From Atribacterota bacterium (GTDB lineage Bacteria > Atribacterota > Phoenicimicrobiia > Phoenicimicrobiales > Stramentimicrobiaceae), in the NCBI GenBank assembly GCA_028717805.1, contig JAQUNC010000002.1:1-64000 (forward strand): a stretch of 64,000 bases of DNA, given 5' to 3'. Of the stretch, positions 54,770 through 58,836 are shown piece by piece; position 1 is the first letter of the stretch, and every line of letters starts with the position of its first letter. The position numbers were made by a program, and so were the translations under genes. The notes beneath the pieces are model-generated. The model did no database searches, was not told the DNA's origin, and saw only the letters and a program-made list of their open reading frames with translations.

Positions 54770-55777
54770 ATGAACGATTTTAGAGATGATGCTGGGGAAA
54801 AAATAATTAATATAGCTGAAAAAATTCCAAAAATAACATTTGGTAAAAAATTTTTAAAGCTATTGATTCTAATTTTAGTTATTTTATACCTGGTTAGCGG
54901 TATTTACATTGTTCAACCTAATGAACAAGGAGTAGTCAGGCGTTTCGGAAAATTTAACAGATTAGATAGTCCAGGTCTTCATTATCACCTGCCCTTTCCC
55001 TTTGAATCAGCAGTAACACCTTCAGTTACAGAGGTAAAAAGGATTGAAATTGGTTTTCGGACTGTTCGTGATAGTTATATTGAAGTCCAGGAGGAAGCTC
55101 TTATGCTTACCGGGGATGAAAATATTGTTAGTGCCGAGGCCATTGTGCAGTACCGAATTAAAAATGCTGCTGATTACCTTTTTAATATAATTGAACCTGA
55201 GCTCACTGTTAAAAACGCCTCTGAAGCTGCACTTAGACAGGTAATCGGAAGTCGTAAAATTGATGATGCCTTAACCGAAGGCAAATACGAAATACAGGAG
55301 GAGACAAGGTTGCTTATCCAGGAGTTACTTGATATCTACCAATCTGGAATTTTAGCAATTGCCGTCCAATTACAGGATGTTAATCCTCCTACTGAGGTAT
55401 CAGCTGCTTTTAAGGATGTAGCCAGCGCTAAAGAAGATAAAAGTAAATTCATCAATGAAGCAGAAGGTTATCGCAATGACATCATTCCCAAAGCCAGAGG
55501 AGAAGCGGCTAGAATTATAAAAGAGGCAGAAGGTTATAAAATCGAGAGAATAAGAAAAGCAGAAGGTGATGTGGCTAAATTTAATCAGATCTTAGCTGAA
55601 TACCAGAAGGGAAAAGAGGTTACTAAATACCGCTTATATATCGAAACAATGGAAAAAATATTACCAAATATGAATAAATTTATCATAGAAGAAACGGAAA
55701 ATAATGTGTTAAAACTGTTGCCCTTGAATGAACCACTGGTCCAGGACTTAATTAGAAAGGAGGTTGAGCAAAAATGA
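54770..55777 (+). CDS. hflK: HflK-like SPFH membrane protein
   Basis: With HflC forms a membrane cage around the FtsH protease and affects membrane-protein turnover. The 335 residues have an N-terminal cytoplasmic piece, one membrane helix (about 30-47), then the SPFH/band 7 domain (about 48-220), beginning VQPNEQGVVRRFGKF, and a long helical region rich in EAEGY repeats. It overlaps hflC by four bases (ATGA). No ftsH is in the window. Confidence 0.92.
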   Translation: MNDFRDDAGEKIINIAEKIPKITFGKKFLKLLILILVILYLVSGIYIVQPNEQGVVRRFGKFNRLDSPGLHYHLPFPFESAVTPSVTEVKRIEIGFRTVRDSYIEVQEEALMLTGDENIVSAEAIVQYRIKNAADYLFNIIEPELTVKNASEAALRQVIGSRKIDDALTEGKYEIQEETRLLIQELLDIYQSGILAIAVQLQDVNPPTEVSAAFKDVASAKEDKSKFINEAEGYRNDIIPKARGEAARIIKEAEGYKIERIRKAEGDVAKFNQILAEYQKGKEVTKYRLYIETMEKILPNMNKFIIEETENNVLKLLPLNEPLVQDLIRKEVEQK

Positions 55778-56628
55778 GAAAAAGTTTAATATTTATTTGC
55801 TTAATTTTGATTATCCTTTTGGCAAATTTTACCCTTTTCATTATTGATGAAACAAAACAGGCTATAGTTCTGCAATTTGGTAAGCCAATCAGGGTTATTC
55901 GAGAAGCAGGTTTGCACATGAGAATTCCCTTTATTCAAAATGTAATCCTCTTTGAGTCTAGGTTGCTTGTTTACGATGCTCCTCCTACTGAGATAATTAC
56001 CCGAGATAAGAAAACCCTAATTCTCGATAATTACGCCCGCTGGAAAATTGCTGATCCCCTACTTTTTATGCAAACAGTCAGAGATATTAATGGAGCGCAA
56101 GCTAGATTGGATGATATCATTTATTCTGAATTAAGAGTGGATCTGGGTAAATTCGATATGAGCGAAATCGTCTCCTCAAAAAGAACTGAAATTATGGAAA
56201 CTGTTACCGAACGCAGTAATGAAAAATCTATGGAATATGGAATAAATATTATTGATGTAAGAATAAAACGTGCAGATTTGCCTCCGGAAAATGAACAAAA
56301 TATTTATGCCAGAATGGAAGCTGAACGGGACAGAATCGCCAAGCAATATCGAGCAGAAGGCATGGAAGAATCCGCCAAAATTATGGCAGAAACAGAAAGA
56401 GAAAAAACTGTAATACTGGCTGAGGCATACCGAGAAGCTCAGCAGTTAAGAGGTGAAGGCGAGGCAGAGGCAATTCGAATATATGCAGAAAGTTTTAATC
56501 AGGATGCAGAGTTCTATCAATTCCTTAGAACTCTGGAATCTTACCAAAACAGCTTGGGAGAAAATACCACTATTCTGTTATCATCTAAAAATGAATACTT
56601 TCAATATATTAACAATATACGAGATTGA
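55774..56628 (+). CDS. hflC: HflC-like SPFH membrane protein
   Basis: Partner of HflK. The 284 residues start with a membrane helix (about 4-22) followed by the band 7 domain (FIIDETKQAIVLQFGKP, GLHMRIPFIQNV) and a charged helical region (EREKTVILAEAYREAQQLRG). The domain order and the pairing with hflK fit the HflKC family. It is a little shorter than E. coli HflC. The gene converges on the RNase H fusion gene, with a shared hairpin between. Confidence 0.92.
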   Translation: MRKSLIFICLILIILLANFTLFIIDETKQAIVLQFGKPIRVIREAGLHMRIPFIQNVILFESRLLVYDAPPTEIITRDKKTLILDNYARWKIADPLLFMQTVRDINGAQARLDDIIYSELRVDLGKFDMSEIVSSKRTEIMETVTERSNEKSMEYGINIIDVRIKRADLPPENEQNIYARMEAERDRIAKQYRAEGMEESAKIMAETEREKTVILAEAYREAQQLRGEGEAEAIRIYAESFNQDAEFYQFLRTLESYQNSLGENTTILLSSKNEYFQYINNIRD

Positions 56629-56698: not shown

Positions 56699-58348
56699 CT
56701 AATATCCCTCTGCAAGATCCACCCTGTTTTCTGGTTCTTGACCATGGAATATCCGTTTAATATTATGATATACCATCAATATGTTCTCTTCTATAGCTTT
56801 ATCGGTATAACCGGCATTATGTGGTGACATAATTAAATTAGGCAATTCTTGAAAGTCATATTTACTGGGTAATACAATCGGAGAATCTTTATCAGGATAT
56901 TGATACCAGGTATCAATTGCTGCTCCGGCTAAGGTTCCATTTTTAAGATGAAAATAGAGGGCTTTTTCATCAATAATCCTGCCCCGCCCAATATTAATAA
57001 GATATTTACCTTTCATCAGTTTTAATATTCGTTCATCAATCATGTTTTCTGTCTTTGGAGTCAATGGTAAGGCAATAATGATAAATTCTGATTGATTAAT
57101 AACATATGCCAATTGTTCAGTTGTACCCAAAAAGGCTAAGCCATATTTCTTATCCAGCATCTCTTCTTTCTTGAGAGAACGTTTAACTGCATATACCTTC
57201 ATACCCAAAGATAAGGCTCTTTTCGCAATTTCTAATCCGATTGAACCAAGACCAATAATACCTATGTTTCTTCCATAAAGTTGAATGGTTGGTTCCCCGG
57301 AAACGAATCCATGCCACTTACCCATTCTCAAATCACGGTCATTATTGATTAGATTTTTAGCTAGTGCTAATAACAGACCAATTGCATGCTCTGAAACAGC
57401 ATGGCTATTTCCATGAGTATTGCACACCGCTATATGGGAATAGTTTTTAAAAACCTCCAGATTTTGCTTATCTACTCCAGCAAAAGGTATTTGAAATAAT
57501 TTTAAGCCTTTAGCCTGACTGAGTTCAGATTCATTTAATTCTCCTCCTACTATCACCTCAGCAGAAGCAATCTGATTGTCCAATTGTTGCTTATTCCCAT
57601 TAGGAAAAACAATCTCTAGTGGAAGATGATACTCCTGATTATATCTACCCAATAATTCCATCCACCTACTAAAGCTAACCATTTTACTAAATATCAACAC
57701 CTTCATTTTTTTACCACCCTTATCCAATATCTGTTTTTCTTTCTCCTGTATATATTTTCGGGTTGCCACAATATGCTTGCATTCCAAATTCCATTGCCGG
57801 CAATGATTTTCAAAATCATAACAATCACATTCCGGAACTGTCAGGTTTACATGATATGTAGTTTTATTTTTTTTATTCTTGACTAAAAAATAATCCCCTT
57901 CCTCTTCTACCATTAAATCTTTGGAGGCAATAACTCTTTTATTCTGCTCCTCTTTAATTAATAGTTTTCTGGCTAATTGGTCAGCCATTTGATTATTTTC
58001 CCTTCTATTCCAAATAAAAAAGATGGGGATCTTAAATTCTTTAATTAATTCTTGAATCTTTTCATAAAGGGGAATCATTTTTTTGTTTTTTACCTTAAAT
58101 TGTCCGTTTAATTGTTTTACTATTAATTGACTATCGCAATAAAACTCAACTGAATCTGCCGGGATATTTTTTATTTCTTCCAGACCTCTGATCACTGCAC
58201 TATACTCAGCAATATTATTGGTACCCATTCCAATTATTTCATTGATTTTTTTCCATAACTGCCCATCTTTATAAATAACAACTCCAATAGCCATATTTCC
58301 AGGATTAGGAATACAGGAACCATCAACACGCAATAATAGTTTTGGCAT
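56699..58348 (-). CDS. RNase HI-SWIM-D-2-hydroxyacid dehydrogenase fusion (may be two genes)
   Basis: One 549-residue frame with three parts. Residues 1-130 are an RNase HI domain with complete acidic set D9, E48, D72, D123. Residues about 150-195 form a SWIM zinc finger, C174-x-C176-x13-C190-x-H192. From M215 a D-isomer 2-hydroxyacid dehydrogenase follows: NAD loop GIIGLGSIGLEIAKRA, GRGRIIDEKAL, catalytic His in SPHNAGYT; the usual Glu near DVFxxE is not obvious (IDTWYQYP). The junction is an A7 tract (57706-57712). With one A fewer, the first protein would end at TGA overlapping the ATG of the dehydrogenase, which has its own AAGGGTGG. So fusion, slippage or an error are all possible. The dehydrogenase substrate is unknown. 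Confidence 0.85.
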   Translation of the reverse strand: MPKLLLRVDGSCIPNPGNMAIGVVIYKDGQLWKKINEIIGMGTNNIAEYSAVIRGLEEIKNIPADSVEFYCDSQLIVKQLNGQFKVKNKKMIPLYEKIQELIKEFKIPIFFIWNRRENNQMADQLARKLLIKEEQNKRVIASKDLMVEEEGDYFLVKNKKNKTTYHVNLTVPECDCYDFENHCRQWNLECKHIVATRKYIQEKEKQILDKGGKKMKVLIFSKMVSFSRWMELLGRYNQEYHLPLEIVFPNGNKQQLDNQIASAEVIVGGELNESELSQAKGLKLFQIPFAGVDKQNLEVFKNYSHIAVCNTHGNSHAVSEHAIGLLLALAKNLINNDRDLRMGKWHGFVSGEPTIQLYGRNIGIIGLGSIGLEIAKRALSLGMKVYAVKRSLKKEEMLDKKYGLAFLGTTEQLAYVINQSEFIIIALPLTPKTENMIDERILKLMKGKYLINIGRGRIIDEKALYFHLKNGTLAGAAIDTWYQYPDKDSPIVLPSKYDFQELPNLIMSPHNAGYTDKAIEENILMVYHNIKRIFHGQEPENRVDLAEGY

Positions 58349-58359
58349 AAATACCTCTT

Positions 58360-58836
58360 TTAATTGTGATAAATATCACTTAATTTTTTCTTTACAAAAA
58401 CTCTTAGCTCGTCCAACTCATTAATAAAATGTACTTTTCCTTCTTTCTGGTAAGGTTTAAGCCATTCGCTGACATCAAATCTAAACAAAATGACTTCTTT
58501 ACCATAGTTTAAAGCCAGGGCAATTTCAGATATTGTTCCCGCTCTTCCTGGTAAAGCGATAATCAGATCACTGCTTAATATATTAATCACATTTCTGGCT
58601 ATACCTATACCCGTTACAATAGGAATATCAATATATTGAGAAGCCCAAGCAGGATCATCAACCGGCAATATCCCTATGGTAATTCCGCCATTATCTTTGG
58701 CGCCCTTAGCTGATGCCTCCATAACACCAGAAGCTCGACCACCATTTAATAATATCCAGCCTTCTCGGGCTATCATTGCTCCAATTTGATAGGCATATTG
58801 CTCATCTTCCGGATTTACAAATTGAGCTCCACCCAT
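58360..58836 (-). CDS. SLOG-fold protein, TIGR00725 family, probable non-AUG start
   Basis: A Rossmann-like protein related to LOG/DprA folds: GGRASGVMEASAKGA, GGITIGILP, and PGRAGTISEIALAL. The first ATG (58836) would remove the first strand, since homologues begin with KxIIGVxGG. In frame upstream the DNA encodes IKRIIIGI, with AAGGAG about 9 bases ahead of an ATC at 58858-58860 and no ATG, GTG or TTG. Translation may therefore start at ATC, or ATG has mutated to ATC. It is 11 bases from the RNase H fusion gene, so both are likely cotranscribed. Ligand unknown. Confidence 0.78.
   Translation of the reverse strand: MGGAQFVNPEDEQYAYQIGAMIAREGWILLNGGRASGVMEASAKGAKDNGGITIGILPVDDPAWASQYIDIPIVTGIGIARNVINILSSDLIIALPGRAGTISEIALALNYGKEVILFRFDVSEWLKPYQKEGKVHFINELDELRVFVKKKLSDIYHN

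Follow-up and report, generated by a model that had tools for sequence, protein, structure and literature searches.

A conserved, very probably genuine gene fusion joining RNase HI with a SWIM-like zinc finger and with a D-2-hydroxyacid dehydrogenase in one Atribacterota order, and a probably incidental A7 run at the junction

The 64,000-nucleotide stretch of Atribacterota DNA analysed here (the window) carries on its minus strand an open reading frame, at 56699..58348, in which an RNase H domain, a SWIM-like zinc finger and a dehydrogenase lie on one chain of 549 aa, and the question raised by this locus is whether the three belong together. A preliminary description proposed that the fusion depends on one base of an A7 tract at the junction, a site at which slippage could give both fused and separate products, and that all active-site residues are kept. 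Our results suggest another explanation. The locus is very probably a genuine gene fusion that was fixed anciently in one Atribacterota order, with an A7 run that is incidental, lying in a Lys-rich linker under little constraint, and with a covalent bond between the two halves that looks dispensable.

The reading frame and its three-part make-up were confirmed by Pfam, by the CxC..CxH motif and by the relatives. Pfam assigns residues 8-128 of the 549-aa frame to RNase H/RVT_3 and residues 255-543 to 2-Hacid_dh/2-Hacid_dh_C. The RNase HI domain (residues 1-132; 57953..58348, minus strand) matches the RNase H fold profiles PF13456 (E 3.4e-19) and PF00075 (E 8e-11) and is related to the solved Sulfolobus RNase HI and to the RNase H of Rv2228c. 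Its best solved relatives are the archaeal/Sto-type RNases HI (2ehg, 3aly), which have the four catalytic acidic residues in common with it but are stand-alone proteins of ~150 aa without SWIM or dehydrogenase. These DEDD residues (D9, E48, D72 and D123) are invariant in the 18 fused sequences described below. The SWIM-like zinc finger (residues ~140-198; 57755..57931, minus strand) has a C-x-C-x13-C-x-H motif (C174-x-C176 ... C190-x-H192) that is clear by eye, is likewise invariant in the 18 sequences and agrees with the SWIM family PF04434 in motif and spacing, although the window's copy scores below the threshold of that profile (E 0.072). The same profile is matched weakly by 16 of 17 members, with a best E of 8e-4, and its cut-off is just reached by two relatives, with neighbouring matches in frame. 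An AlphaFold model built from a five-row alignment had a mean pLDDT of 38 and was unusable.

The D-2-hydroxyacid dehydrogenase domain (56699..57706, minus strand; 335 aa plus the stop) matches PF02826 (E 2.5e-43) and PF00389 (E 1.4e-10). It belongs to the same fold family as the D-2-hydroxyacid dehydrogenases of the glyoxylate/phosphoglycerate/formate dehydrogenase superfamily, with which it has in common the NAD-binding fold with its GxGxxG motif and the catalytic Arg and His, and differs from them in being fused at its N terminus. Arg455 and His510 are invariant in the 18 sequences, but alignment with the best solved relative, 2d0i, puts Tyr484 at the position of the usual catalytic Glu in all members (DTWYQYP in the window), so the classical Arg-Glu-His triad is not present. 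The proposal that all active-site residues are kept therefore holds for the RNase H domain and fails for the dehydrogenase, which is a member of the fold family without the classical active site. The enzyme activities of both parts are given here as predictions. The motifs of this Glu-to-Tyr subfamily (DTWYQYP / DVWYRYP / DTWWxYP) also occur in stand-alone dehydrogenases of other bacteria, which indicates that the Tyr substitution predates the fusion.

The gene was recovered from 20 genomes of the order, and in 18 of them the fusion is uninterrupted; all of the named relatives are metagenome assemblies. These 18 genomes span two families, and their frames are 549-552 aa long and free of stops; four further genomes of the order, 63-76% complete, lack the gene. 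Between the CKH of the CxH motif and the dehydrogenase, most members of the two families share one spacing. The pN/pS values were 0.05-0.13 for RNase H, 0.08-0.24 for SWIM and 0.14-0.25 for the dehydrogenase (six pairs), and 0.34-1.06 for the linker (residues 199-214; 57707..57754, minus strand) for the five pairs that allowed the calculation. The best reading of these values is that purifying selection acts on every domain and hardly at all on the linker. In the window's genome the fused gene is the sole RNase HI-type match and is accompanied by one RNase HII gene.

Outside the order the parts occur separately. Relatives of the dehydrogenase are there separate genes of ~330 aa, the nearest being in genomes G062, G349, G210 and G024, the last of which belongs to the same phylum as the window. 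In these four genomes RNase H is absent or on another contig, so a tandem but unfused arrangement of RNase H-SWIM and dehydrogenase genes outside the order was rejected. In a broad but sparse sample of 386 genomes, the RNase H matches listed for genomes of other orders stop at around residue 130-150, with the exception of one run that extended through stops, and the SWIM part was in none of them. The RNase H-SWIM pairing was also not found in the rest of the phylum, so the idea that it is a widespread unit was dropped, and our search of the literature for this pairing returned nothing relevant. One contig of an assembly from another Atribacterota family (L029; G045:C201:2-346) encodes an RNase H part that is 83% identical to the window's, while the other RNase HI copy of that assembly is just 35% identical to it; the contig probably reached that assembly as contamination from another genome of the window's order. 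A 332-aa protein in G002 (L083:2620-3618; contig C23) has an N-terminal CxC..CxH motif, with similarity to the window's SWIM part at E 2.9e-7, and a long stretch without assignment, and matched no Pfam family above the cut-off.

The junction, GATAAGGGTGGTAAAAAAATGAAGGTG, reads GGT-A7-TG on the minus strand and is translated in frame as D-K-G-G-K-K-M-K-V; the A7 tract is at 57706..57712 and supplies, with its final base, the A of the dehydrogenase ATG. The dehydrogenase begins at Met215, directly ahead of its first hydrophobic stretch, KVLIF, a position which suggests that Met215 was once the start codon of a separate gene. We propose that an ancestor of the order would have had an archaeal/Sto-type RNase HI gene with an added SWIM zinc finger, located upstream of a D-2-hydroxyacid dehydrogenase gene, and that the first gene became joined in frame to the second, whose start Met would now lie at the junction. 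Two independent enzymes would thus have been placed on one chain, joined once and then kept, and indels in the A-runs of the linker would later have split the gene at least two times because the covalent bond is dispensable.

An addition to this explanation that we consider possible, though not probable, is that the internal ATG also gives free dehydrogenase in the window's family. It lies behind a Shine-Dalgarno-like sequence, AAGGGTGG (57714..57721, minus strand), and with an assumed anti-Shine-Dalgarno sequence, not one taken from the organism's 16S, the predicted pairing in the window is -9.9 kcal/mol at the internal site versus -7.2 at the main start, which makes the site the third best of 39 internal ATGs. 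On the same assumption the predicted pairing is -12.2 in G009, -8.9 in G004 and -14.2 in G007, and the dehydrogenase starts of the two split relatives described below have predicted sites of -17.7 and -11.6. In the window's family this predicted ribosome-binding site and its start are often kept, in the window too, and internal initiation may therefore give some of the dehydrogenase in free form. However, G002, G003, G006 and most of the second family have a weak site, and four fused genomes have no ATG, GTG or TTG at the junction (ATA in G006, ATT in G007, CTA in G016 and ATA in G017). The site could also be a relic from before the fusion or a by-product of Gly/Lys codons. We infer both internal initiation and the independence of the domains.

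A single chain is not universal, as the fused frame is broken in 2 of the 20 genomes, G001 and G008, by indels in the A-runs of the linker. In G001 (locus L007, contig JAKPKS010000251.1) the junction is GGGGTGATAAAAATTGAAGG, and the TGA of the RNase H half overlaps the TTG start of the dehydrogenase. G008 has an A5 earlier in the linker where its sister G009 has an A7, which shifts the frame, so that the RNase H half continues past the dehydrogenase ATG and then stops. Both halves are still open in both genomes, the RNase H half of G008 being cut by the contig end. In a tree the label 'fused' changes three times, consistent with a single gain and a double loss, although some of the forks are weakly supported, and the two splits are read as independent events. 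Because both halves remain open behind good predicted internal ribosome-binding sites, the covalent bond looks dispensable. An alternative is that both splits are consensus errors and that all members are fused, which would fit our preferred explanation minus the dispensable bond. Both breaks are in A-runs and each comes from a single assembly consensus, but the short linker contains just 27 of the 323 A5/T5 runs, so that two random errors would both have fallen there with a chance of ~0.7%, and the new dehydrogenase starts have strong predicted ribosome-binding sites with both halves open. We therefore consider consensus errors unlikely. With its two natural splits, this gene offers a useful way of asking whether function or drift maintains such fusions.

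Conservation of the fusion over two families could also reflect an undiscovered functional link. In such a scenario the NAD-linked, Tyr-substituted dehydrogenase-like module would sense the redox or oxo-acid state and modulate or position RNase HI-SWIM on nucleic acid, and in the window's family the internal start would determine how much of the dehydrogenase is fused and how much is free. We regard this particular scenario as improbable, and the dispensable bond suggested by the splits in G001 and G008 recalls what has been reported for the mycobacterial RNase HI-CobC protein. In M. smegmatis, truncation of CobC had no cost in fitness, and fixation was attributed to drift by the authors (PMC7466739).

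The proposal that slippage at the A7 tract yields both fused and separate products is right in its one-base arithmetic. With one A fewer the junction reads GGT AAA AAA TGA, in which the TGA overlaps the ATG of the dehydrogenase (ATGA), and a +1 shift would let both Lys codons re-pair (AAA AAA A), with TGA as the next codon. The splits of G001 and G008 by indels in linker A-runs also show that a small change in this region separates the halves, and to that extent the earlier proposal stands. The tract is, however, not conserved. Among the 18 fused sequences an A7 directly before TG is found at the junction only in the window's own genome (G000), G002 and G003, so that the window's tract recurs in just two other fused relatives, or in three if the A7 followed by TT in G007 (AAAAAAATT) is counted. 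Other junctions lack an A7 and are still fused (for example AAGAGCAATG and GCCAAAGATG), and in the second family every member's junction differs from A7-TG. The preliminary description had held that a conserved in-frame linker without the A-run would mark a true fusion, and with 18 genomes from two families showing an open frame, mostly without the junction A7 and in four cases without the ATG, such a linker is what the relatives have; the fusion does not depend on the A7.

The A7 is also common. In the window, to which these base rates apply, there are 82 A7 sites against a mean of 102 in shuffles, fewer than expected, and A7 or longer runs are present in 30 of the 52 window ORFs, with three further runs in the fused ORF itself (A7 at nt 96 and 264, A8 at nt 474). 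For slippage, E. coli RNA polymerase requires at least 7 T in a row, or a still longer run of A (PMC6260861), so an A7 is below the published threshold for A, and A/T runs in the genomes of bacteria commonly show signs of counter-selection at a length of nine (PMC1088944). A programmed transcriptional slippage gene was rejected, as the long homopolymer conserved at the junction that would characterise it is missing, with an A7 in only 3-4 of the 18 fused sequences. In an AT-rich genome an A-run at a domain junction is no evidence of slippage, and functional slippage at this site is very unlikely. The remaining alternative, that one extra A from assembly or sequencing has joined what are really two overlapping genes, draws on indels in homopolymers being a familiar kind of error and on the splits in G001 and G008, but is essentially refuted by a frame that is open in 18 separate genomes, mostly with differing junctions.

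In architecture, the closest parallel to this fusion is the actinomycete RNase HI-CobC protein (Rv2228c / MSMEG_4305 / SCO2299; NCBIfam NF005567). Its N terminus is likewise an RNase HI of broadly the same type, which a variable linker joins to an unrelated metabolic enzyme, and it too is limited to one bacterial branch, with domains that evolve semi-independently (PMC7466739). It differs in its partner, which is the CobC acid phosphatase, in having no SWIM finger and in belonging to another phylum. The window's protein scores 94.7 bits against NF005567, for which the cut-off is 326, with the match covering residues 3-146 only, and its C-terminal domain is the dehydrogenase and not a CobC phosphatase. 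The Atribacterota gene is a further, independent case of an RNase HI tethered permanently to an unrelated metabolic enzyme, here with a SWIM finger in addition, in a phylum that is deep-branching and mostly uncultivated.

The upstream neighbour of the fusion is a SLOG/LDcluster4 gene (58360..58836, minus strand; TIGR00725 above the cut-off), which ends 11 bases before the fused ORF and is placed likewise in 12 of the 17 neighbourhoods scanned. A defence association of the fusion was considered and set aside, as PADLOC gave no match for it; the SLOG/LDcluster4 gene has a weak match to the PADLOC PsyrA model. The conserved block reads SLOG/LDcluster4, the fusion, (an hflK/hflC-like pair), class II fructose-bisphosphate aldolase (fba), phosphofructokinase (pfk) and dnaE, the names of the last two having been read from the sequence without a profile, and does not reveal a shared pathway. 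The hflK/hflC-like genes (54770-56628), on the other strand, separate the fusion from fba-pfk-dnaE, and in G001-G004 this pair is absent here, so that the two blocks adjoin.
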